DNA of 28,132 bases. Source: a virus. The stretch's first letter is position 1. Each line of letters begins with the position of its first letter. Location of the stretch: positions 1 to 28,132 of the IMG/VR virus record IMGVR_UViG_3300023179_007111; one strand, given 5' to 3'. The translations under genes were made by a program, and so were the position numbers. The notes beneath the pieces were generated by a model. That model worked only from the letters and a program-made list of their open reading frames with translations. It did not search any database and was not told the origin of the DNA. Shown piece by piece: positions 11,475-24,548 of the stretch.

Positions 11475-11486
11475 ATTAAATACTTG

Positions 11487-12110
11487 ATGAATATTGAATT
11501 TTTTCCCCGGAGGTTTTTTCTACTAGGTGTAAATTTTACACTGGATATCCCCCACGACGAGTTGATTCAGGAATTTAAAAAAGAAGATTGGGTCTGTTGG
11601 AATGCTGATGTTCCCAAAGGACACGAAAATCCCAATTGGAACTATCGTTACAAATTGCCCAATATTAAGACACCAACAGTACAAAAAATACACAATTATC
11701 TTCATTCAGAGCAGGTATACAATAAAGCACTAGATGGTCTATATGAGTTTAGAGATCAATTCACTGGACTCTGGTCCATGCCCAAAGATCAGATGAAAGA
11801 ATGGGCCTGTTGGCACGCAGAATTCATGTGGGACAAACCAGGATTTTATCTAGAACCGCACAATGATTACAGAAGATTAGTGGCAGCAGGAATGATATAT
11901 TTTACTGAACATCATGATGTCAATGTTTCTACAACATTTTATTCAGATCGGCAGTTGAATAATCCCATGACCATGACCACCAATTACGGTGATGGTTGGC
12001 TAGCTGTTAATGACTACTGCAACTGGCACGAAGGAAGAAATGCATCTGACTATGACCGTTACAGCGTTTTGCTGGGACTAACTATTAAAACACCAAAAGA
12101 CTATCAATGA
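11487..12110 (+). CDS. 2-oxoglutarate/Fe(II)-dependent oxygenase-like protein
   Basis: 207 residues from ATG 11487 (an in-frame TTG lies directly before it). The double-stranded beta-helix signature is present: LEPHNDYRRL at 122-131 gives the HxD iron ligands H125 and D127, CNWHEGRN gives the distal His181, and DRYSVLLGL gives Arg191 as 2-oxoglutarate-binding RxS. Such enzymes hydroxylate or otherwise oxidise amino acids, nucleobases or small molecules. It overlaps the first radical SAM gene by 4 nt (ATGA), so the two are translationally coupled and possibly act in one pathway. No Shine-Dalgarno is visible; the upstream AT-rich AATAAATT (11470-11477) may be a degenerate late promoter. From here on the DNA is visibly more A+T-rich than in the preceding 9 kb. 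Confidence 0.72.
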   Translation: MNIEFFPRRFFLLGVNFTLDIPHDELIQEFKKEDWVCWNADVPKGHENPNWNYRYKLPNIKTPTVQKIHNYLHSEQVYNKALDGLYEFRDQFTGLWSMPKDQMKEWACWHAEFMWDKPGFYLEPHNDYRRLVAAGMIYFTEHHDVNVSTTFYSDRQLNNPMTMTTNYGDGWLAVNDYCNWHEGRNASDYDRYSVLLGLTIKTPKDYQ

Positions 12111-13558
12111 CTACTGAGAACAAAAAATTATGGCCCATTAAGTCTGACACCGGTTGTTATTTAAAATGGTCCTGGAGCACCATCTACCTAAATCGTGGCA
12201 CCACTGCCAGCTGTCACAGAACAGTGCATAATCATTTCACAGCTGAAAATTTTGACGAATTTCATAATCTTCCAAAAAAATTAGATGATCGTCGCAGAAT
12301 GTTGGCAGGAGGTTGGCCCGAAGAGTCAGAAACCACCAAATGGGGCATAAGCGGTTGCACTTATTGCAAGCACATGGAAGATCTGGGAGGGACCAGTGAT
12401 CGACAAGTACAACTACAAAATTTAGGTACAGTTTTTCAAAATCACACCAATGTAATTCCCCCCGAATTGCTGGAAGACCCCAATGCTGTGTCAGTTACCC
12501 CCACCATTGTGGAAGTCTACTTCAACAATGTCTGTAACATGGCTTGTTTGTATTGTGGCCCACACTTTAGCACCATGTGGGAAGAAGAAAATCGCAGATT
12601 TAACGCACAAGAAGACGGTATTCTGGCCAATCCACTCTGGCAGAGAGATCAGGTGCGATATGATGCCATGCGAGATAAACTGTTTGCCTGGTTACGCGAA
12701 CATGGTCATAAAATCTGGAATTTTGGTATGTTAGGAGGAGAACCATTCTTCCAGAAAGAATTTGATATGGTATTGGATCACTGGGAAAACTACCCTAATC
12801 CAGATCTGACCCTAACCATTGTGACAAATCTTAAAATCGAGCATGGTAGATTTGTTGGTTATATTGACAGATTAAAACGCATGGCGGAAACTGGCAAAAT
12901 CAAATCTCTGAATATCAGTGCCAGTCTGGATTGCTGGGGGCCCCAGTCCGAATATTTGCGTTGGGGATTAAAATTAAGCGAATGGGAAAAGAATTTTACA
13001 TACATGGTTCCGCAGGAATGGATTACCCTAAATGTTAACATTACCATCACTCCACTAAGTATAAAAACTTTACCAGAGTTTCTTGAAAAAATTAATGCCT
13101 GGGACCAGGATCGATTGATAAACATTGTTGCAAAAAATTTAAAATTACCTTATGAAAAACTATCACAACATCGAGATCGAATTTTGCAAATGATAAGTCA
13201 GAATAAAATACCACAGGCTGATATTGACAAACACATTTGTGTAAGTTTTATGCACGTACTAGACCCCACTCAGATGAATCCATTGTGGTTTGGACAGGGA
13301 GTTTTTACCCAAGACATGCAACGTGTAGCAGACCTGATGCCTGTGTTGACTGAATATCAAAGAAATTATAAAACTTACATGCAAGGCATCGCCAATAGTA
13401 TAGAAAAAACGTCTCGAGATCCTAAAAAGATATTGATGTTAGAAACATATTTAAATGAAATGGATCGGAGACGAGGAACCGTTTGGCCAGAGCTTTTTCC
13501 TTGGTTAGTTGATCAATTCGCTCAAGCCAGGACAGAATTAGGAGAACTTGGTGAATAA
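12107..13558 (+). CDS. Radical SAM protein with N-terminal twitch-like domain (array member 1)
   Basis: 483 residues. The radical SAM cluster is NVCNMACLYC, Cys143-147-150 (CX3CX2C), followed by MLGGEPFF (GGEP at 210-213) and SASLDCWG (about 280). Upstream lies a four-Cys module: Cys17, Cys36, Cys84 and Cys87 (GISGCTYCKHMEDLGG), as expected for an auxiliary Fe-S cluster of twitch/SPASM type, here placed before instead of after the TIM barrel. The C-terminus ends with a DRRRGTVWPELFPWLVDQF block that recurs in shortened form in other array members. Family knowledge: twitch/SPASM radical SAM enzymes mostly modify peptides, sugars or small molecules through a 5'-deoxyadenosyl radical; phage members have no proven function. 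It overlaps its upstream gene by 4 nt. It is the longest of the five clustered proteins. Confidence 0.88.
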   Translation: MTTENKKLWPIKSDTGCYLKWSWSTIYLNRGTTASCHRTVHNHFTAENFDEFHNLPKKLDDRRRMLAGGWPEESETTKWGISGCTYCKHMEDLGGTSDRQVQLQNLGTVFQNHTNVIPPELLEDPNAVSVTPTIVEVYFNNVCNMACLYCGPHFSTMWEEENRRFNAQEDGILANPLWQRDQVRYDAMRDKLFAWLREHGHKIWNFGMLGGEPFFQKEFDMVLDHWENYPNPDLTLTIVTNLKIEHGRFVGYIDRLKRMAETGKIKSLNISASLDCWGPQSEYLRWGLKLSEWEKNFTYMVPQEWITLNVNITITPLSIKTLPEFLEKINAWDQDRLINIVAKNLKLPYEKLSQHRDRILQMISQNKIPQADIDKHICVSFMHVLDPTQMNPLWFGQGVFTQDMQRVADLMPVLTEYQRNYKTYMQGIANSIEKTSRDPKKILMLETYLNEMDRRRGTVWPELFPWLVDQFAQARTELGELGE

Positions 13559-14687
13559 TAATTACTGTAAAAGTCCCTGGACCGGAGTTTTTATTGAAAC
13601 TGATGGATCCGTAAAAAGTTGTTGTGCCGGGGGGCATTACTGGGGCAACCTTAATGAGAATACCATTGATGAAATACTGACCAAACCCGAAGTTATTGGA
13701 ATCAAACAAGGTATAATCAACAATCAGCCAGTGGAGTATTGCAAAGGTTGTCGTCGAGACGAGGAGGCAACTGGGTATAGTTTGAGAAATTATTACGATC
13801 AGTTCACAACCACCAATGAGCTGCTGAATTCCGCCAATGACTTTGTGTTAAGAAATATAGATATTCGATGGAACGCTTTGTGTAATCTTAATTGCGTTTA
13901 TTGCAACGAGCGCAGTAGCACTAAATGGCAGGGACTCAAAGGAATCCCTATTGAATCTTTGGAACGGCAATATTATGATCATGTTCTGGACTTTATTAAA
14001 CGAAATGGACAGGATTTAGAAGTTGTATTGTTGGTGGGGGGCGAACCTCTGTTGCCCAGACAAAATCGAAATCTATTAGATAATATACCCGATGACAAAC
14101 ACATTGATTTAATCTCCAACCTCAGTAGTAATTTAGATAATAACCAGGTTTTTCAGAGATTGCAATCCAAAAAAGACGTAAGTTGGCAAGTTAGTTTTGA
14201 ATCAATAGGATCGAAATTTGAATATGTTCGTCATGGTGCCAACTGGAAACTATTTGTTGATAATTTAAAAAAAGTCAAATCCATACCCGGACATAGAATA
14301 ACAGCATTGCCAGTCTATTGCATTTATAGCGCGTTAAATTTAATAGAAATTTACGAATTTATACAAGAAATTGACATACAAATTCATTGGCAAAAACTGT
14401 GGGGACCAAACTATCTCAATGTGACTAATTTTTCTCCCAGAATTAAACAATTGGCCATAGAAGAAATTAGTCGAGTTTTGGATTTACCATATTTGGATAA
14501 ATTCACCAGTGGTATGAACAGAGTGTTCTTTGAAAATCAGTTAAAAGAGTTGACAGGGTCATCAGATCAGAACGTGGATAGTGAGTTTTTAAAGTGGACC
14601 GAAAAATATGAAACCACATATGCCACCGATGCAGGTAAACTAGCCGATGTCTTTCCCAAATTAAATGATGCCTTGCGAAGCCAATAA
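13551..14687 (+). CDS. Radical SAM protein with N-terminal twitch-like domain (array member 2)
   Basis: 378 residues from GTG 13551, chosen because AGGAG at 13540-13544 is 6 nt upstream; a TTG at 13548 would be too close. The start overlaps the previous gene by 8 nt. N-terminal module: Cys6 (NNNYCKSPWTG), Cys24-25 (DGSVKSCCAGG), and Cys64/Cys67 (EYCKGCRRDEE). The radical SAM cluster is LCNLNCVYC, Cys111-115-118, followed by VGGEPLL (163-169). The C-terminus has the DVFPKL block (about 367-372). The IETDGSVKSCC segment is the pattern seen where an auxiliary cluster is bound. The substrate is unknown. Its order and overlap with members 1 and 3 indicate a single polycistronic unit. Confidence 0.87.
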   Translation: MNNNYCKSPWTGVFIETDGSVKSCCAGGHYWGNLNENTIDEILTKPEVIGIKQGIINNQPVEYCKGCRRDEEATGYSLRNYYDQFTTTNELLNSANDFVLRNIDIRWNALCNLNCVYCNERSSTKWQGLKGIPIESLERQYYDHVLDFIKRNGQDLEVVLLVGGEPLLPRQNRNLLDNIPDDKHIDLISNLSSNLDNNQVFQRLQSKKDVSWQVSFESIGSKFEYVRHGANWKLFVDNLKKVKSIPGHRITALPVYCIYSALNLIEIYEFIQEIDIQIHWQKLWGPNYLNVTNFSPRIKQLAIEEISRVLDLPYLDKFTSGMNRVFFENQLKELTGSSDQNVDSEFLKWTEKYETTYATDAGKLADVFPKLNDALRSQ

Positions 14688-15879
14688 TAATTATTGTGTG
14701 TTAGTTGATATTGGACTAGCATCACAGACCAATGGCAACACCACTGTCTGCAATCAGAGTCGCACTGAACTTAAAGATGCAAATGGCCAAGTTCTTAGAT
14801 TAGACCGAAACAGTTTACATGAAAGTTGGGCCAGTCCAACCAGACAAGAAATACGTTGTTCCATGTTGTCCGGAGAACAACACGCCAATTGCCGAGATTG
14901 CTGGGACGAAGAACTTGCTGGCAGAATCAGCATGCGACAGTTGAGCAATGAAAAATTTTCCAGTGTAACTGTTAATACAAATCAACCCAGGGTGTTCATG
15001 TTCAAACCTGGAAATGTCTGTAATCTCAGTTGTAGGCACTGCAACCCATTTGTGAGTTCCAAATGGTACCGCGATCACTACCAGGCAGCAGTTAAACCAA
15101 AAAATAATATTAGTTTTGTGGACTACGTTAGATCATACGATTCTATCAGAGATAGTTTTGCTACAGAAAATACGAATCTCTGGCCCGTACTCAAACAATG
15201 GAATAAAAATCTAATTTATTATGATCTTTACGGTGCCGAGCCCCTGTTAATTGCCCCCTTATTAGAAACACTTAGAGAAAGTTATCTCAGTGGGGTGTCC
15301 AAAAATCAAGAAATACACATCAACACCAATGGTACTATCTGGCACGACGACTTTAATGAAGTCTTTGGATCATTCAAACGTGTTGAGTTGGGAATCAGTA
15401 TTGACGGAATTGAAGAAAAATTTGAATACATGCGTTATCCTGCAAAATGGGAATTAATACTGGAAAATTTAAAAAAATATCAGGAACTTTCTCTAAAGTA
15501 CCCCGGTATCGAACTTTCGGTCTGCATAACGGTCAGTCTTTTAAATATATATTACCTGCCGGAATTTTTAAATTTTTTCCATCGAATTGGCATCAGTTGC
15601 GGTACCAATTTCGTACACAGGCCCGATTATCTTAACATGAGAATTGCCCCACCAGCAGTTAAACAAAAAATCATTGACAAACTTGAAAATAGCCAATATT
15701 TTGTCGGTGGGTGGGGAGAAAAAACTTCTATTATAGCCAATTTTATCAGACTGGATCATGAAAACTCCCAACAGTTAATGCAGGAGTTTTGGGAATACAC
15801 CAAAAAATATGATGTACTGCGTAAAGAATCATACGCCGATGTCTTTCCAGAATTTTATGAGATACTGACCAATGAGTAA
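14665..15879 (+). CDS. Radical SAM protein with N-terminal twitch-like domain and GAEP variant (array member 3)
   Basis: 404 residues if translation starts at ATG 14665 (an adjacent in-frame ATG is at 14668); the start overlaps the previous gene by about 20 nt and has no clear Shine-Dalgarno. N-terminal module: Cys11 (NNNYC), Cys29, Cys76 and Cys79 (ANCRDCWDEE). Radical SAM cluster NVCNLSCRHC, Cys119-123-126. The SAM-binding GGEP motif is changed to GAEP (190-193, LYGAEPLL). SIDGIEEKFEYMRYPAKW is near 246-263. The C-terminal block reads RKESYADVFPEFYEIL; a decayed copy of this end is found at 18365-18472, so the gene or a close paralogue was duplicated. Function as for the array; the substrate is unknown. 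Confidence 0.87.
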   Translation: MMPCEANNNYCVLVDIGLASQTNGNTTVCNQSRTELKDANGQVLRLDRNSLHESWASPTRQEIRCSMLSGEQHANCRDCWDEELAGRISMRQLSNEKFSSVTVNTNQPRVFMFKPGNVCNLSCRHCNPFVSSKWYRDHYQAAVKPKNNISFVDYVRSYDSIRDSFATENTNLWPVLKQWNKNLIYYDLYGAEPLLIAPLLETLRESYLSGVSKNQEIHINTNGTIWHDDFNEVFGSFKRVELGISIDGIEEKFEYMRYPAKWELILENLKKYQELSLKYPGIELSVCITVSLLNIYYLPEFLNFFHRIGISCGTNFVHRPDYLNMRIAPPAVKQKIIDKLENSQYFVGGWGEKTSIIANFIRLDHENSQQLMQEFWEYTKKYDVLRKESYADVFPEFYEILTNE

Positions 15880-17167
15880 TACACTTTGTTCATTCGCATT
15901 TGCACACACTGATATTGAACCCAATGGCGATATAAAATTTTGTTGTGCGGCGCGGGCTGGGGACAATCGTGATCTCAATGGAAATGTGTATAATGTAACT
16001 ACACACACCCTGAAGGAAGCCTGGAATAGCGAAATACTAAAGCAAACACGCATGGAAATGATCGAGGGCAAGCGCCCTGCGGTTTGCAATTATTGTTGGC
16101 AACTAGAAAACTCTGATAATACACAGGGATCTAGTGTACGATTACAAGCCGCAGAAAAAAGAATTCCCATAAGTTCTATCAGTGACAGAATTGAGTATGC
16201 CAAGAATCATAACGGGGAGCTAAAGGATCTGGCTTTTGATTTTCAATTGTCAATTGGCAATTTATGTAATCTAGCATGCAAGATGTGTAATCCTGGATAT
16301 AGTACACAATATCAAAAATTCTTTTCCAAGTTTCACAATTCTCCACAAGAAATTAATTTTGTCAAAAATCCACCGTTAAATTCTGGTGGTCATTTTGAAT
16401 TCCCTTTCGGCACAAATTTTGACTGGCCAGTTACTCAGTCCCTGACTGAAATCTTTAAAGATCATATACCCACGCTCGAAAGAGTATTTTTTACTGGGGG
16501 CGAGCCAACATTAATACCAGAAGTTTTAGAGTTTATTGACTATCTATCCATCAATGCTCCCAGGGACTTTACTGTGTGGCCCAGTACCAATTGCACCAAT
16601 ATTAATAAAAAATTATTAGACTCTTTAGAAAAGTTTAATAGAATTTGGCTGAATTTGAGTTTGGATGGCATGGATGACATTGCGTATATTCAGCGCACTC
16701 CTAGCAAATGGGAAAATATTGAAAAAAATGTAGATCAGCTAATGCACTGGGCCAAAGATCAAAGAAATAATGGAAAACAGATTGATGTCGCAATAATCAG
16801 CACATTGACTTCAATGAATTTTCATCATATGTTGGACTTCTGGGAATATTTGGAAAATCGCTACGATCACGTCACCTATTATGGGATATCTGCCAATGTG
16901 GTTTTGTTAAAAAACACAAATTTTGGGATAGAAACCGTGCCCAAAGTAGTAATAGAAGAACTTAGAAATAAGTGCATTCAGTTATTGGAAAAATCCAATA
17001 AGTCCACTCGTGTTGCACTTGAACAATACCTGCATCTACTAAACACCGTCAATTTTGCAGACAATCACGAACAAATACATTTCTGTCTGGAAAAGTTACA
17101 GCAGTATCATCCGGATTTGGATATTAAAAAGATTTATCATATATACTACACAGATCAGTTGACCTAG
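15872..17167 (+). CDS. Radical SAM protein with N-terminal twitch-like domain (array member 4)
   Basis: 431 residues, ATG overlapping the previous gene by 8 nt. N-terminal module: Cys6 (NTLCSFAF), Cys24-25 (NGDIKFCCAA), then Cys72 and Cys75 (AVCNYCWQLE). Radical SAM cluster GNLCNLACKMC, Cys132-136-139. TGGEPTL has GGEP at 209-212; LSLDGMDD follows near 262-269. Between the module and the barrel is a longer linker (about 80-125) than in the other members. The C-terminus lacks the FPEL block of its neighbours and ends YYTDQLT. Those last bases and the following 30 bases are repeated before the DsbA-like gene, which marks the original junction between this gene and that one. Confidence 0.87.
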   Translation: MSNTLCSFAFAHTDIEPNGDIKFCCAARAGDNRDLNGNVYNVTTHTLKEAWNSEILKQTRMEMIEGKRPAVCNYCWQLENSDNTQGSSVRLQAAEKRIPISSISDRIEYAKNHNGELKDLAFDFQLSIGNLCNLACKMCNPGYSTQYQKFFSKFHNSPQEINFVKNPPLNSGGHFEFPFGTNFDWPVTQSLTEIFKDHIPTLERVFFTGGEPTLIPEVLEFIDYLSINAPRDFTVWPSTNCTNINKKLLDSLEKFNRIWLNLSLDGMDDIAYIQRTPSKWENIEKNVDQLMHWAKDQRNNGKQIDVAIISTLTSMNFHHMLDFWEYLENRYDHVTYYGISANVVLLKNTNFGIETVPKVVIEELRNKCIQLLEKSNKSTRVALEQYLHLLNTVNFADNHEQIHFCLEKLQQYHPDLDIKKIYHIYYTDQLT

Positions 17168-17202
17168 AAACCAACAATAATGTAAAATTTAATTTTCAGG
17201 GA
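17151..17202 (+). repeat. 52-bp imperfect direct repeat, copy A
   Basis: Matches 18475-18526 at 48 of 52 positions; all four differences are transitions. It contains the last 17 bases of radical SAM gene 4 (coding TDQLT and the stop) and the following AT-rich spacer. The other copy stands directly before the DsbA-like gene. The two copies bracket radical SAM gene 5 and a pseudogene relic. Confidence 0.9.
17159..17188 (+). promoter_or_regulatory. Sigma70-like promoter in repeat copy A (TTGACC-18-TAAAAT)
   Basis: TTGACC (17159-17164) and TAAAAT (17183-17188) each match the consensus at five of six positions with an 18-nt spacer. The -35 overlaps the final codons of radical SAM gene 4. The start would be near 17195, leaving a leader of about 66 nt for radical SAM gene 5. 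Confidence 0.45.
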
Positions 17203-17217
17203 TTACTTATTACTAAT

Positions 17218-17233
17218 CTTGTAAAAATACAAG
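17218..17233 (+). other. Short stem-loop in leader of radical SAM gene 5
   Basis: CTTGTA (17218-17223) and TACAAG (17228-17233) form a perfect 6-bp stem with an AAAA tetraloop, 28 nt before the ATG. This segment is absent from repeat copy B, so it came with the inserted gene. It could influence translation or mRNA stability. Confidence 0.3.
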
Positions 17234-17260
17234 TAGATGTGAGAAATGTAAAGCTACTAT

Positions 17261-18352
17261 ATGGCAAATCAATTTTGTAGATATCTATCTAATGGCTATA
17301 CATTAAATATAACCAAAAATAATCTTATCAACGTAACACCATGCTGTCTTTATATAGGGAACGGAATTACATTAGATTCTCAATTGTTGGAAAATCGCAA
17401 AATTATATTTGATTCTGTTACAGGATGGACCAACAATTGTTCAAATTGTAAGGATATGGAAGATATTGGTATAGGCAGTTTAAGAACCGCTAGTTTTGAC
17501 TGGATCGATAACAACGAACACTTTCAAGACGCTATATCTTTGGATATTCATTTAGATAATGAATGTAATGCAGCTTGTGTGATCTGCTCAGAAAATTGTA
17601 GTTCATTGTGGAAAAAAGAAAATTTAAAATTACACAATAAAAAAATAAAAATTATCAAAAATGAAAATTCCATAGATGAACAGATAGAACGCGTTTTTGA
17701 TTTAATACCTTTAAGAAAATTAAAATACGTCAAATTTTTTGGAGGTGAGCCTTTATTTACCGATACACACTTAAAATTTATACAACGCATCACAAATCCA
17801 GGCCAGGTGACTCTCCATTACACCACCAATGGGTCCATATACCCAAACAAAGAAGTATTATCTGCATGGGAGCCATTCAAGGTAGTAATCTTCGCTGCAA
17901 GTTTAGATGGAATTGAAGATCAATTCAATTATGTTCGATGGCCCTTGCCATGGAATAAAGTTAGTAAAAATTTAATTCGATTACGAGAAAATAAAGATAT
18001 AGTTAACTTGATGTTTAGAATAGAATTTACAGCCAATTTTCTCAATTCATATTATTACGATCGTCTAGAAAATTGGATGGCTGAAAATCTATCCACCAAT
18101 AATGCAGGAGACAAGACCGAGTTAGAATTACACCGCTGCTGGGGAGGTATATGGGATTTAGAAAAAATGCCTTGGGGAATACGAGAACAGATTATGAAAA
18201 AGTATCCACCACATCATGTAATATATCGCCTAATAGAAAACTTACCTGAACCAACCAGCTTAGACCCATGGAGAAAGTTTGTTGAATTATGGGACAACCA
18301 TCGAGGTAACAGTTGGCAGAAATCTTTTCCAGATCTGGTATCTTATGTCTAA
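17261..18352 (+). CDS. Radical SAM protein with N-terminal twitch-like domain (array member 5, inserted)
   Basis: 363 residues; the shortest and most A+T-rich member, with many AAA, TTA, ATA and AAT codons. N-terminal module: Cys6 (NQFCRYL), Cys28-29 (VTPCCLY), Cys60 and Cys63 (NNCSNCKDMEDIG). The last segment resembles member 1 (TYCKHMEDLGG), so it is closer to member 1 than to its neighbour. Radical SAM cluster NECNAACVIC, Cys102-106-109; FFGGEPLF has GGEP at 161-164; ASLDGIEDQFNYVRWPLPW follows. C-terminal block SWQKSFPDL. It has no overlap with neighbouring genes, unlike members 1-4, and no good Shine-Dalgarno. It lies between 52-bp repeats, indicating insertion by recombination from a relative carrying a different array. 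Confidence 0.87.
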   Translation: MANQFCRYLSNGYTLNITKNNLINVTPCCLYIGNGITLDSQLLENRKIIFDSVTGWTNNCSNCKDMEDIGIGSLRTASFDWIDNNEHFQDAISLDIHLDNECNAACVICSENCSSLWKKENLKLHNKKIKIIKNENSIDEQIERVFDLIPLRKLKYVKFFGGEPLFTDTHLKFIQRITNPGQVTLHYTTNGSIYPNKEVLSAWEPFKVVIFAASLDGIEDQFNYVRWPLPWNKVSKNLIRLRENKDIVNLMFRIEFTANFLNSYYYDRLENWMAENLSTNNAGDKTELELHRCWGGIWDLEKMPWGIREQIMKKYPPHHVIYRLIENLPEPTSLDPWRKFVELWDNHRGNSWQKSFPDLVSYV

Positions 18353-18364
18353 TATAGTAGACAT

Positions 18365-18472
18365 CAACAATTAATACAGGAGTTCTGGGAGCATACTAAT
18401 AAATATGGTGATCTACGTAACGAGTCTCGTGCCTTTACCTTTCCAGAATTCTATTAGATACTGACTACTTAA
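18365..18472 (+). pseudogene. Decayed C-terminal fragment of a radical SAM gene
   Basis: In one frame this reads QQLIQEFWEHTNKYGDLRNE, then a segment ending FPEFY, an in-frame TAG, ILTT and TAA. It aligns with the last 36 codons of radical SAM gene 3 (QQLMQEFWEYTKKYDVLRKE, then FPEFYEILTNE, stop). There is no start codon or upstream coding part. It is a relic of a fourth-branch paralogue removed or overwritten when radical SAM gene 5 arrived. It fills most of the gap between 18353 and 18534. Confidence 0.85.
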
Positions 18473-18474
18473 TC

Positions 18475-18526
18475 CAGATCAGTTGACCTAGAAATCAACA
18501 ATAGTGTAGAATTTAATTTTCAAGGA
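18475..18526 (+). repeat. 52-bp imperfect direct repeat, copy B
   Basis: Matches 17151-17202 at 48 of 52 positions. It includes a dead copy of the last codons of radical SAM gene 4 (DQLT, stop) and the spacer that leads into the DsbA-like gene. Unlike copy A, it ends in AAGGAG, the ribosome binding site of that gene. Confidence 0.9.
18483..18512 (+). promoter_or_regulatory. Sigma70-like promoter before DsbA-like gene (TTGACC-18-TAGAAT)
   Basis: TTGACC (18483-18488) and TAGAAT (18507-18512), five of six matches each, spacer 18 nt. The start would be near 18519, just before the AAGGAG at 18521-18526. The promoter is conserved between both repeat copies despite four substitutions. Confidence 0.5.
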
Positions 18527-18534
18527 GTATTTTT

Positions 18535-18792
18535 ATGTCACAGATGTTTTCGGCCGAACAAAAGGCCAAGCTCACTCAACTAGTCAATGAAGGCATTGCA
18601 GTCTTGACCGAAATCGAAGACCTCACAGGTGGTTTGAACGACACCATCAAAGCAGTGGCCGAAGAGCTGGAAGTCAAACCAGCCATTCTTAAGAAAGCCA
18701 TCAAGATTGCACAAAAATCCAAGTTTACTGAAACCAACCAGGATCACGAAACACTACAGGACATTCTGGAAACCGTGGGCCGCACTGTCTAA
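18535..18792 (+). CDS. dsbA: Small DsbA-like double-stranded DNA-binding protein (late transcription)
   Basis: 85 residues, entirely helical in appearance, no Cys. The segment GGLNDTIKAVAEELEVKPAI followed by LKKAIKIAQKSKF matches my recollection of T4 DsbA and its cyanophage homologues (89 residues in T4: a short acidic-basic protein with an ELGVDGKMFNRL-like helix). T4 DsbA binds late-promoter DNA and stimulates late transcription with gp33, gp55 and gp45. A strong AAGGAG lies 8 nt before the ATG. Its G+C and codon use return to those of the polymerase region, and it overlaps the next gene by 1 nt. A generic small helical DNA-binding protein is the alternative. Confidence 0.6.
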   Translation: MSQMFSAEQKAKLTQLVNEGIAVLTEIEDLTGGLNDTIKAVAEELEVKPAILKKAIKIAQKSKFTETNQDHETLQDILETVGRTV

Positions 18793-19460
18793 TGTTTTGC
18801 TACGTCAAAGATCAGTTTTGCTACCTGGTAGTCAACAAAAATGCTTCTCAGACTTATAGCAAATTGTTGTCTGATCATGGATGGCAGCGGCGAGATTTAT
18901 TTGCCAACGATCTTGATCTAAAAAATATGGTGCTATGGGGGCATATTTCAGATCCCGAAGCAAGACACACCAAGGGTTTAGCAACATATCTACTCATCAA
19001 CTCCGAAATAGACTACACAAACCCCAGTGTTGCTAAATTACTAGTCACTGGGGTTTTTGACACACACACATATAGTATATCAATGATGCTTGGTCCAATC
19101 TGGAATTACCCAATTCATTGGATACCATTGGACTACACTTTTATTGATCAGTTTTCGCAAACATTCGATCACCTGAGAAAAAAATACGGACCCAACGAGC
19201 TCACACAAATGTGGTTTGAAGAAAATAGTATCGACGTTAATGTGGACAATGCCATATGGCTAAATCGATCGCATTCCGTAGAAAGAAAGATTCGAGATAC
19301 TATTAATTACTACAAGTTTCAGCACCAGGAAGAATACGGTCAACTTATAAAAAATTATTTGTATCCGGACATTGTCCAATATCGAAAAACATTGAACGAG
19401 TATGCTAAAAAATTTGGGCACTCAGTTGATGTAATACCGGCAAGCCTTTATGAAGAATAA
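18792..19460 (+). CDS. Sulfotransferase-like phage protein
   Basis: 222 residues, ATG overlapping the previous TAA by 1 nt. FCYLVVNKNASQTYSKLL at 9-26 has the form of the 5'-phosphosulfate-binding loop of Golgi-type sulfotransferases (hxxxPKNASTTxxxxL). WGHISDPEARHTKGLATYL at 49-67 resembles the 3'-phosphate-binding strand and helix (RDPxxRxxSG), with Arg-Asp reduced to Ser-Asp. The remaining parts are not recognisable. If active it would move sulfate from PAPS to a sugar or peptide. Related sulfotransferase-like genes are frequent in marine T4-like phages. The departure from the consensus at the second motif leaves activity uncertain. Confidence 0.5.
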   Translation: MFCYVKDQFCYLVVNKNASQTYSKLLSDHGWQRRDLFANDLDLKNMVLWGHISDPEARHTKGLATYLLINSEIDYTNPSVAKLLVTGVFDTHTYSISMMLGPIWNYPIHWIPLDYTFIDQFSQTFDHLRKKYGPNELTQMWFEENSIDVNVDNAIWLNRSHSVERKIRDTINYYKFQHQEEYGQLIKNYLYPDIVQYRKTLNEYAKKFGHSVDVIPASLYEE

Positions 19461-22472: not shown

Positions 22473-24548
22473 ATGAAAAAAATAGAACTAGTCAACGTAA
22501 CTAATCTGGAATCTATGCCCAGGACTCCATTGACCACATCTGATGTGGTTTTTGAGCATATGGATAGATTTACCCAACATCGGATGACATTTGACAAGGA
22601 TCTGAGACTCAAAGGCAAATACTGTTATCACCCGTTTAATACAGTGACCATCGACAGTCAGGGAGATTGTTATGTGTGCACCTGTCAGGCTTGGTTACCC
22701 ATTAGCGTGGGAAACATTCTGGAATTCAACAGTCTGACAGCAATCGTGCAGAGTACCCGAGCCAGAGAAATACAAGCCAGTATTATTGATGGTACCTACA
22801 AATACTGTGACCACAAAACCTGTCATCTGATTACCAGCGATCGGCTCGAGGGACGAATTGATCACAGGCCCGACACAGTAAATTGGATTGTTTTTGCCAT
22901 TGACGATAGTTGTAATCTGACTTGCCCCAGTTGCAGAACAGACATGATTTTCTATAATCGAGGCGAAGATTTTGATCGACGCATGCGAATCAGCGATCAC
23001 TTGGTAAAACTAATTCAGGATCACGACCATTTCTTAAAATTTACTCTGAGTGGTGATGGAGACCCTTTCGCCAGTCATGTCTATCGTAACATGCTGGAAA
23101 AGCTGGATCTCAGTCGACGTGGAACCACTGAAATTGAAATTGTAACCAATGGCATTCTAGCCAAGGACCACTGGCACAAGATGTCTGGCATCCATAAAAG
23201 CGTCATGAGGTTTAAGATTAGTTTTGACGCTGGTAGTCCAGAGGTATATGCACAAACACGCAGGGGTGGTAACTGGAATAAATTAATTGAAAGTTCAGAA
23301 CACATCATCAAATGGAAACAAAAAAATTATTCTGACATGGAACTTGTGGCAAATTTTGTAGTGCAGACCACAAACTTTCGTGACATGCACCAGTTTGTAA
23401 AGTTGGCCCAGGACCTGGGATTTGATGAAATCGCATTCCAGAAAGTTACTGATTGGGGTAAGTGGTACGACAACGGGGTTAACCGATTTGCAAAACATGC
23501 AGTGTGGATGCCTAACCATGAAAATTATCAGGAGTTAATAGAAATTATTAATGATCCTATCATGACCGATAGAAAAATTAACTTAACCAATCTTTCACAT
23601 CTGCGAAAAACGGTACTATCTTTGTCGGAACTAGTAGAGTTAAAAAACTCAGTCAACACAAAACTCAATACCAGTAATTTGAAATTAATAACGGACAGTT
23701 ATAAAACTCAGTTTGAAACTATTAAAAATATATCATCTGCCTATGAAAGAAATCTAAAGGCAATGTCTGACATTGCTAATGATGTCAGTGTTAATTTAAA
23801 ATTTTTAGATACTGAAATAGAAAAAATCAACACTGATATTGATCAGGAAATTGATTCAATAACCTCCAACTATCACCAGAGAGGGTACAAAATAAATGGA
23901 CAGTTTGCCACCAATCGAACCAATGAAATTACTGAAAGAAACGACAGAAAATTACCAATGCTGGAGGAAACTCGCCAGGAAATTGTTGCCTTGATTCAGA
24001 AGTATTCTAACTGGAAATACCCGGGTCTGGAAATTGGTCCTGGCGACGGCATCTGGACCGAATACCTGGTGGCAAATGAACCACTGTATCTGGTGGACAT
24101 ACATCAAGCATTTTTAGATTCCACCAAGAGTAAATTTAACGAGTTATTCCAGAACAGATTACGCACATACGTTACCAAAGAAACCAGTCTGTATACGCTG
24201 CCGCAAAATCAATTTGGTTTTGTGTTTTCGTGGAATGTTTTTAATTATCTGACCACGGATCTGATAGATCAGTATCTGAAAGAAATTTTCAGTGTGTTAA
24301 GACCTGGCGGGATTTGCCTGTTTAGTTATAACAACGCTGAACGCGTGCATTGTGCAAAGTATGTAGAACTGGGGTACATGAGTTACATGCCCAAAACACT
24401 ATTGACTAAATTAATCCATCAACATGGATTCGAAATAGTCAGTCTAGAAGACAGGAATGAGTTTATTTCCTGGGTTGAAATACGCAAACCCGGTGCTCTG
24501 ACCACCATCAAGGCCCACCCTGTTCTGGGTGAAATTATCCAAAAATAA
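22473..24548 (+). CDS. Radical SAM - methyltransferase fusion protein (sixth radical SAM gene)
   Basis: 691 residues, 2 nt after the polymerase stop, so probably translationally coupled. N-terminal Cys-rich module: Cys51 (KYCYHPF), Cys66, Cys69 and Cys71 (GDCYVCTC), Cys112 and Cys117 (YCDHKTC). Radical SAM cluster DSCNLTCPSC at Cys147-151-154. The GGEP equivalent is GDGDPF (194-199); FKISFDAGSPE is near 247-256. Residues about 385-510 form a long charged helix or coiled coil. Residues 515-675 are a class I methyltransferase: GLEIGPGDGIWTEYL (motif I), VDIHQAFLD, FSWNVFNYL, VLRPGGICLFSYNN. The protein could combine two SAM-dependent reactions on one substrate. It differs from array members 1-5 in the GDGDP motif and in the extra domain. 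The substrate is unknown. Confidence 0.85.
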   Translation: MKKIELVNVTNLESMPRTPLTTSDVVFEHMDRFTQHRMTFDKDLRLKGKYCYHPFNTVTIDSQGDCYVCTCQAWLPISVGNILEFNSLTAIVQSTRAREIQASIIDGTYKYCDHKTCHLITSDRLEGRIDHRPDTVNWIVFAIDDSCNLTCPSCRTDMIFYNRGEDFDRRMRISDHLVKLIQDHDHFLKFTLSGDGDPFASHVYRNMLEKLDLSRRGTTEIEIVTNGILAKDHWHKMSGIHKSVMRFKISFDAGSPEVYAQTRRGGNWNKLIESSEHIIKWKQKNYSDMELVANFVVQTTNFRDMHQFVKLAQDLGFDEIAFQKVTDWGKWYDNGVNRFAKHAVWMPNHENYQELIEIINDPIMTDRKINLTNLSHLRKTVLSLSELVELKNSVNTKLNTSNLKLITDSYKTQFETIKNISSAYERNLKAMSDIANDVSVNLKFLDTEIEKINTDIDQEIDSITSNYHQRGYKINGQFATNRTNEITERNDRKLPMLEETRQEIVALIQKYSNWKYPGLEIGPGDGIWTEYLVANEPLYLVDIHQAFLDSTKSKFNELFQNRLRTYVTKETSLYTLPQNQFGFVFSWNVFNYLTTDLIDQYLKEIFSVLRPGGICLFSYNNAERVHCAKYVELGYMSYMPKTLLTKLIHQHGFEIVSLEDRNEFISWVEIRKPGALTTIKAHPVLGEIIQK

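Follow-up and report, generated by a model that had tools for sequence, protein, structure and literature searches.

Why would a phage carry five radical SAM genes in tandem, each encoding a cysteine module ahead of the barrel, and on what would the enzymes act? We addressed this question in the 28,132-nucleotide stretch of viral DNA that contains the array (the window), in which a large, uncultured phage of the T4 superfamily carries the array as lateral cargo directly ahead of its DNA polymerase gene. Our analysis points to sugar oxidoreductases akin to BtrN, which would tailor a glycan made by the phage, a reading to which we give a probability of about 0.5 and in which the substrate is putative.

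Organization of the array

All features described here lie on the plus strand. The array is preceded by the gene of a putative Fe(II)/2-oxoglutarate-type oxygenase (11484..12110; 208 aa), proposed from its motif only (PHND ... WHEGR), with no Pfam or NCBIfam match and with an orthologue in L007, a relative at 90% identity. This gene opens an AT-rich block, its GC content being 39% versus 52% in the preceding gene. Member 1 (12107..13558; 483 aa), an N-twitch radical SAM protein, contains C17-x18-C36, C84xxC87, C143x3C147x2C150 and GGEP; member 2 (13548..14687; 379 aa) contains C7-x17-C25, C65xxC68, CNLNCVYC and GGEP; member 3 (14665..15879; 404 aa) contains C11-x17-C29, C76xxC79, CNLSCRHC and GAEP; and member 4 (15872..17167; 431 aa) contains C6-x17-C24, C72xxC75, CNLACKMC and GGEP. 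The divergent member 5 (17261..18352; 363 aa; GC content of 33%) contains C6-x21-C28, C60xxC63, CNAACVIC and GGEP. None of the five reading frames is interrupted, and each retains the seven cysteines, in agreement with the coordinates and cysteine arrangement of the original prediction.

The oxygenase gene overlaps member 1 by 4 nt, and the overlaps between members 1 and 2, 2 and 3, and 3 and 4 are 11, 23 and 8 nt, respectively, while 93 nt separate members 4 and 5. These overlaps agree with the earlier proposal that the oxygenase gene and members 1-4 form one expression unit, and the overlapping arrangement is consistent with a single transcription unit. An Rfam search for RNA or riboswitch control of the array gave no match, and promoter and terminator scans scored the real sequence no better than shuffles. 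Farther downstream, a sulfotransferase-like protein (18792..19460) is proposed from its motif only, which reads VVNKNASQTY in the window and IPKNASTTY in the L007 orthologue; family searches with this protein were without match.

A twitch-type module precedes the radical SAM core

In an alignment of 101 rows, comprising phage and bacterial relatives, the four N-terminal cysteines and the three radical SAM cysteines are invariant at a mean column identity of 17%. The rows were picked for the CX3CX2C motif and the N-terminal cysteines were no selection criterion; the conservation of the latter goes beyond chance. Their module precedes CX3CX2C in every row, with a C1-C2 spacing of 17 residues in 82 rows, 18 in 18 rows and 21 in one. 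In all five members, CX3CX2C is followed by a GGEP-type SAM-binding motif. No C-terminal cysteine set was found in any of the five, and the twitch module is not C-terminal to the barrel. The seven-cysteine motif of SPASM proteins, which have two auxiliary clusters, is also absent, the alignment holding just four conserved extra cysteines.

Based on the NCBIfam model NF033640 (N_Twi_rSAM; curated cut-off of 170 bits), members 1 to 4 score 200.9, 215.6, 287.6 and 231.5 bits, all above the cut-off, with matches that span the full length, N-terminal cysteine module included. Member 5 reaches 166.8 bits, about 3 under the cut-off, with its best stretch starting at profile position 62, and we classify it as a divergent NF033640 relative that retains all seven cysteines. 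The Pfam SPASM family PF13186 scores above cut-off at the N-terminus of member 2 (7-68) and member 4 (6-76), and PF04055 does so in members 2, 4 and 5, with members 1 and 3 falling below. Together with the homology to BtrN described below, PF13186 and NF033640 bear out the twitch-type module ahead of the barrel that was first noticed in the sequence, and a reversed-twitch radical SAM architecture is very probable. We rejected the idea that this architecture is new, since the reversed order already defines NF033640; the enzyme type was catalogued previously, in a model without stated function, to which the window adds the tandem arrangement and the turnover of the array.

A sixth radical SAM gene, absent from the earlier note, lies directly after gp43 (22473..24548; 691 aa). 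Its product combines an N-terminal cysteine module, a core with GDGD replacing GGEP and a C-terminal methyltransferase part that matches the models BioC and phrog_4752. It scores 41-45 bits with NF033640, below the cut-off, and the gene has relatives in 22 viral loci.

Homology to BtrN

A profile of the 101 relatives matches, at positions 6-77, residues 186-261 of BtrN (4m7t; E 1.3e-9), and this same segment aligns also to the SPASM/twitch domain that anSME and SkfB carry at the C-terminus. The C-x17-C...CxxC of BtrN aligns with the phage N-terminal cysteines. By this sequence evidence, the front module of the phage proteins and the twitch at the C-terminus of BtrN are homologous, and the module order is therefore truly reversed. 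BtrN (PDB 4m7s, 4m7t), a 2-deoxy-scyllo-inosamine dehydrogenase, shares with the phage enzymes a four-cysteine twitch and a CX3CX2C core; its twitch is C-terminal, whereas that of the phage enzymes, whose substrate is not assigned, is N-terminal. In this inosamine dehydrogenase, the twitch supplies four cysteines to one cluster (PMC6231123, PMC9012708).

The AlphaFold2 model of member 2 had a pLDDT of 95.4 and a pTM of 0.92, and that of member 4, built on a four-row alignment, was discarded (pLDDT 49). A protein of an uncultured Caudovirales phage in BFVD, A0A6J5NYF9, shares the fold over its entire length (TM 0.95, 35% identity) and carries only the annotation 'Radical_SAM domain containing protein'.

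Lineages and turnover

Based on our trees, the five members belong to one subfamily and represent five separate old lineages, which rules out a recent tandem duplication and does not fit unrelated acquisitions with different barrel types. Member 1 groups with the first radical SAM gene of the phage glycosyltransferase-like cassette described below (trees: 100/98; 90, with a long branch). Member 3 has orthologues of 60-90% identity in L007, L008 and L009, member 4 has relatives in 19 viral loci, and member 5 is missing in L007. In Vibrio phage K566, an isolate, tblastn gave three weak matches to members 3-4. Relatives carry one to four such genes at this site, so that five is not a constant number, and as many as 11 N-twitch radical SAM genes per 260-kb contig. 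The five members proved too diverse for a joint alignment to be useful in scanning.

Member 5 is flanked by two copies of a 58-nt direct repeat (90% identity), the first at 17151..17208, with a promoter-like TTGACC-N18-TAAAAT, and the second at 18475..18532, directly before an 85-aa ORF. Between member 5 and the second copy lies the 3' end of a member-3-type radical SAM gene (18365..18465), which reads IQEFWEHTNKYGDLRNESRAFTFPEFY* with an in-frame TAG; this relic accounts for the read-through match downstream of member 5. Its DNA is 76% identical to 15769-15869 over 101 nt, with an alignment score of 53 versus at most 19 in 200 shuffles. Neither the relic nor the flanking repeats were part of the earlier note.

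The original prediction had offered either successive steps on one substrate or a diversifying toolkit. The turnover of members between relatives speaks for the toolkit, and variable membership mildly disfavours an obligate linear pathway; successive steps on one substrate are indistinguishable from alternative or parallel modifications.

A glycosyltransferase-like cassette in related phages

Our searches identified a cassette that occurs in hundreds of large phages and is new in this analysis. It comprises a tail-fibre gene, three putative glycosyltransferase genes (GT1, GT2 and GT3), one to eight N-twitch radical SAM genes, often an SGNH gene and sometimes a carbamoyltransferase gene. All three GT-like genes were present in 80 of 80 GT1 loci, at least one N-twitch radical SAM gene in 76 of them (in most, four to six) and a carbamoyltransferase gene in just eight; in the reverse search from the radical SAM genes, GT1 was found in 77 of 80 loci. 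The confirmed places number at least 595 and at least 574. The GT assignment is based on DxD-like motifs and synteny: GT2 is related to GT3 (97.5%), searches of Pfam, NCBIfam and PDB profiles with the three families gave no match, and the E. coli GT8 enzymes WaaJ/WaaO were matched with a probability below 1%.

No gene of the GT cassette lies within the 28-kb window. One phage, L009, links the cassette with members 3-4 and gp43 in a single run, GT3-GT2-GT1-rSAM-rSAM-member 3-member 4-gp43-rSAM/MT. Another relative, G020 (89%), carries a gp43-side pair and, separately, an array of seven genes with GT-like, SGNH and carbamoyltransferase genes on its flanks. Supply genes also occur in relatives, namely a SAM synthetase gene in G020, a ferredoxin gene in L025 and an A-type Fe-S carrier gene in L021, the last of which is matched more weakly in L017 and L025.

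Large arrays of NF033640 genes occur in phages and Bdellovibrionota. In bacteria, a carbamoyltransferase gene stands beside two N-twitch genes in a Bdellovibrionaceae locus (L055) and at the end opposite an N-twitch pair in a Bacteroidales cluster (L112). GT1 was present in 4 of 20 Bdellovibrionota array regions versus none of 20 control regions; in many bacterial arrays, the probes used detected no glycan genes.

Multi-gene radical SAM sets have precedents in T4-like phages, and we therefore rejected the set as a novelty. The T4-like environmental phage TARA_ERS488813_N000010 is reported to carry 12 radical SAM genes and an A-type Fe-S carrier (PMC5332604), and a second report places radical SAM cassettes of pelagimyophages within a glycosyltransferase-rich host recognition cluster (PMC7029224). 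By description, these large T4-like phages resemble ours in their many radical SAM genes and in variable cassettes close to genes for tail fibres and GTs; a reversed twitch, a conserved gene order and array scars are not among the features given in the relevant passages of these two reports.

Proposed function and alternatives

In the proposed mechanism, the four N-terminal cysteines would fully ligate one [4Fe-4S] cluster, which, as has been proposed for BtrN, would accept an electron from the radical formed on the substrate. From such a cluster, net oxidations or other C-H chemistry would be expected of most members, with polyols or sugars as substrates. Gene neighbourhoods suggest that these substrates are sugars or glycans made by the products of nearby genes, which are of the GT-like, SGNH and carbamoyltransferase types and, in other loci, also include aminotransferase and sugar-nucleotide genes. 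Such enzymes would yield a variable glycan, displayed on tail fibres or the host envelope, and member swaps may alter its chemistry and thereby receptor recognition, rival-phage exclusion or evasion.

The ligation alone leaves the reaction type unfixed, because the auxiliary cluster of anSME is likewise fully ligated and that enzyme acts on protein. Peptide or protein modification of the RiPP or sulfatase-maturase type, with tail-fibre or small cassette proteins (ORFs of 105 and 119 aa) as targets, is an alternative, which we consider rather improbable. The radical SAM core is closest in sequence and fold to the peptide modifiers anSME, SkfB, SuiB and EpeE, tail-fibre genes adjoin the cassette, and each of the seven cassettes inspected closely has small conserved ORFs beside its GT-like genes. 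Nevertheless, these ORFs lie among GT-like genes and are missing from the window array, where a 93-nt gap and a 182-nt, mostly relic stretch leave no room for a precursor gene, in line with the original prediction that none is visible in the cluster. Unlike the SPASM/twitch peptide modifiers anSME and SkfB, whose core is similar, the phage enzymes are reversed in order and have no second SPASM cluster site. No RRE was matched in Pfam or NCBIfam, and the N-terminus is taken up by the twitch.

A role in auxiliary metabolism, with lipids or other small metabolites as the modified substrates, is unlikely. The gp43-side hotspot does hold mixed cargo, including two fatty-acid desaturase genes (PF00487) in L008 and, as judged by eye, further metabolic genes in L044, and the GDGT synthase core gives a moderate sequence match; the far larger set of arrays, however, accompanies GT-like, SGNH and carbamoyltransferase genes. 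It is very improbable that the window array is decaying cargo with no present function: the relic gene and duplicated repeats indicate turnover, but the five frames remain open with seven cysteines each, and members 2-4 have orthologues of 56-65% identity that retain all of them. Viperin-like enzymes making altered nucleotides for defence or counter-defence were rejected on scores as scarcely credible, since the weak viperin matches to all five cores reach 20-33 bits with NF038283 (cut-off of 180), the PADLOC pVip matches are weak, other radical SAM models match about as weakly, and an N-terminal twitch and arrays are foreign to viperin.

BtrN-like tailoring of a phage-made glycan is thus the reading that we carry forward. 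More tentatively, the widespread late-gene cassette may be a combinatorial glycan writer, in which each member would add a different radical-made sugar modification and recombination would reshuffle the coat chemistry. Phage synteny provides a concrete hypothesis, BtrN-like glycan tailoring, for NF033640, and near-identical phages that differ by single members offer a natural assay system. If the hypothesis is true, radical chemistry would join the means by which phages decorate themselves or their hosts.

The five-gene array and its cysteine pattern

The 28,132-base IMG/VR record is probably a fragment of a virus genome. The original prediction was of five tandem radical SAM genes at 12107-18352, each encoding four N-terminal cysteines (C-x17/18/21-C ... 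CxxC) ahead of CX3CX2C and GGEP or GAEP; five head-to-tail ORFs were found at these positions, and the pattern is present in 5/5 members. In an alignment of 101 phage and bacterial relatives, whose rows were picked by profile and presence of CX3CX2C and not by the N-terminal cysteines, all seven cysteines (four N-terminal, three radical SAM) are invariant (101/101) at a mean column identity of 17%; GGEP and a few core residues are nearly invariant. Chance is excluded as the source of the cysteine pattern.

Reversed domain order

This protein type is already known as NCBIfam NF033640 (N_Twi_rSAM), whose cut-off is exceeded by members 1-4 and narrowly missed by member 5, and in members 2 and 4 the N-terminus is matched by Pfam SPASM. 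In a PDB search with the 101-relative profile, the dehydrogenase BtrN was matched via the N-terminal segment (profile 6-77 to 4m7t 186-261, E 1.3e-9), while the peptide modifiers anSME and SkfB were matched via the barrel, and their C-terminal auxiliary domain gave a weak alignment with the N-terminal segment. With a narrower member-2 profile, the BtrN C-x17-C...CxxC motif, whose four cysteines fully ligate one [4Fe-4S] cluster (PMC6231123), aligns cysteine by cysteine with the N-terminal module. In BtrN, CX3CX2C precedes the twitch cysteines, whereas in the window members it follows them. Since the twitch domains of characterised enzymes are C-terminal extensions (PMC9012708), these matches bear out the proposed reversal: the domain order is genuinely permuted.

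From the 101-row alignment, AlphaFold2 produced a confident model of member 2 (pLDDT 95.4, pTM 0.92). Foldseek showed that phage proteins share its whole fold (TM 0.95), and that PDB entries overlap it only partially (query TM at most 0.45 among the matches listed), as expected from a permuted domain order. MiaB-type and LipA enzymes also place an auxiliary cluster ahead of the barrel, but in domains of other kinds.

History and turnover of the array

Two trees, of 51 and 108 rows, place members 1-5 in five separate lineages (members 1 and 5 lying on long branches in the larger one), and a recent duplication as the origin of the array was therefore rejected. In both trees, members 1-4 each group with partners from other phages, and member 5 is without such partners. 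Gene order 2-3-4 is conserved in three phage loci (L007, L008 and L013) and order 3-4 in L009; L007, whose member 3 shares about 90% identity with that of the window, carries members 1-4 only. Member 5 and a 101-nt relic lie between two 58-nt direct repeats (17151-17208 and 18475-18532), which are 90% identical and contain promoter-like hexamers. The relic, located between the member 5 stop and the second repeat, derives from the 3′ end of a member-3-type gene and contains an in-frame TAG. The array has thus turned over, and the repeats could be crossover sites for swapping its genes. The GC content of the putative oxygenase gene and members 1-5 is 33-40%, versus 52% in the preceding gene and 47% in the following gp43 (DNA polymerase) gene, and this AT-richness fits lateral cargo. 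By DNA polymerase, which is about 50% identical, the nearest isolates are large myovirus-type phages, e.g., Sinorhizobium phage Phosso and Agrobacterium phage Atu_ph07.

Directly after gp43, at 22473-24548, lies a sixth radical SAM gene, absent from the original prediction and fused to a C-terminal methyltransferase. The fusion is conserved in at least 22 viral loci and has a related N-terminal cysteine module, with Cx4C for CxxC and GDGD for GGEP. The window also encodes, at 18792-19460, a sulfotransferase-like protein with an altered motif, which L007 keeps intact (IPKNASTTY); in the same gp43-side hotspot, L008 carries two fatty-acid desaturase genes (PF00487; 2712-4218, minus strand).

A wider phage cassette

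By profile search, a 260-kb relative has 11 N_Twi genes, a 201-kb phage 9, and the 79-kb contig G020 9, seven of the last in one array and two adjoining gp43. Such genes recur in a tightly syntenic cassette, in the order tail-fibre gene, 105-aa ORF, GT3, GT2, 119-aa ORF, GT1 and one to eight N-twitch genes, followed by a conserved 360-384-aa protein, SGNH/DUF6071 and sometimes a carbamoyltransferase. IMG/VR scans gave at least 595 confirmed places for GT1 and at least 574 for the first cassette radical SAM gene. Among the best 80 GT1 loci, three GT-like genes are present in 80/80 and at least one N-twitch gene in 76/80; the 360-384-aa protein (23/80), SGNH (22/80) and carbamoyltransferase (8/80) are rarer, partly because the examined stretches end before those genes. 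GT1 is present in 77 of 80 radical SAM-seeded loci. These counts rest on the closest matches, some contigs possibly being near-copies, and describe the cassette core rather than every member. In L009, the cassette, members 3 and 4, gp43 and the radical SAM-methyltransferase lie in one run; the window array therefore belongs to the same system.

The GT label rests on DxD-like motifs and context; GT2 is homologous to GT3, and no family library confirmed a glycosyltransferase identity for GT1, GT2 or GT3. Two N-twitch proteins are fused as one 903-aa ORF in L041 (4889-7600), the frame being broken into three ORFs in the near-identical L050 (4890-7600).

Bacterial relatives

In Bdellovibrionota, N_Twi genes were found in 55 of 192 genomes (E ≤1e-40), several with nine; at least nine, often clustered, are present in G135, G142, G061, G054 and others. 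Comparison of 20 array regions with 20 control regions from the same genome set gave GT1 in 4 versus 0, GT2-type genes in 2 versus 0 and carbamoyltransferase in 1 versus 0, an enrichment in the right direction but modest. A carbamoyltransferase adjoins two N-twitch genes in L055; in the Bacteroidales cluster L112, polysaccharide-exporter-like and DegT-like genes, read by eye, lie between a carbamoyltransferase and an N-twitch pair. Both loci are suggestive.

Proposed function

Electron acceptance by a fully ligated auxiliary cluster has been proposed for BtrN and anSME (PMC6231123). By analogy, the N-terminal cluster would be fully ligated and accept an electron, and the enzymes would therefore perform net oxidations or similar C-H chemistry; their substrates may be the sugars of a phage-made glycan. 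Genes for SAM synthetase, A-type Fe-S carriers and a ferredoxin also occur in relatives, consistent with intensive use of radical SAM chemistry. The SAM synthetase of G020, an 89% relative of the window, is located at 13782-14717 of L100 (PF00438/PF02772/PF02773).

A plausible rival explanation, and the main one, is that the enzymes modify a protein or peptide. The cassette ORFs of about 105 and 119 aa that accompany the GT-like genes (L009 4372-4689 and 6217-6594; L098 16125-16484 and 18021-18338), for which a family match was looked for and none found, may be substrates or accessory proteins.

Other phages rich in radical SAM genes have already been described: a T4-like environmental genome has 12 such genes and an A-type carrier (PMC5332604), and pelagimyophages have radical SAM cassettes in a glycosyltransferase-rich host-recognition region (PMC7029224). 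No paper on reversed-twitch arrays or this cassette was found in a literature search that covered few subscription journals. The five-gene array is a real, well-conserved feature, and its predicted function is testable.
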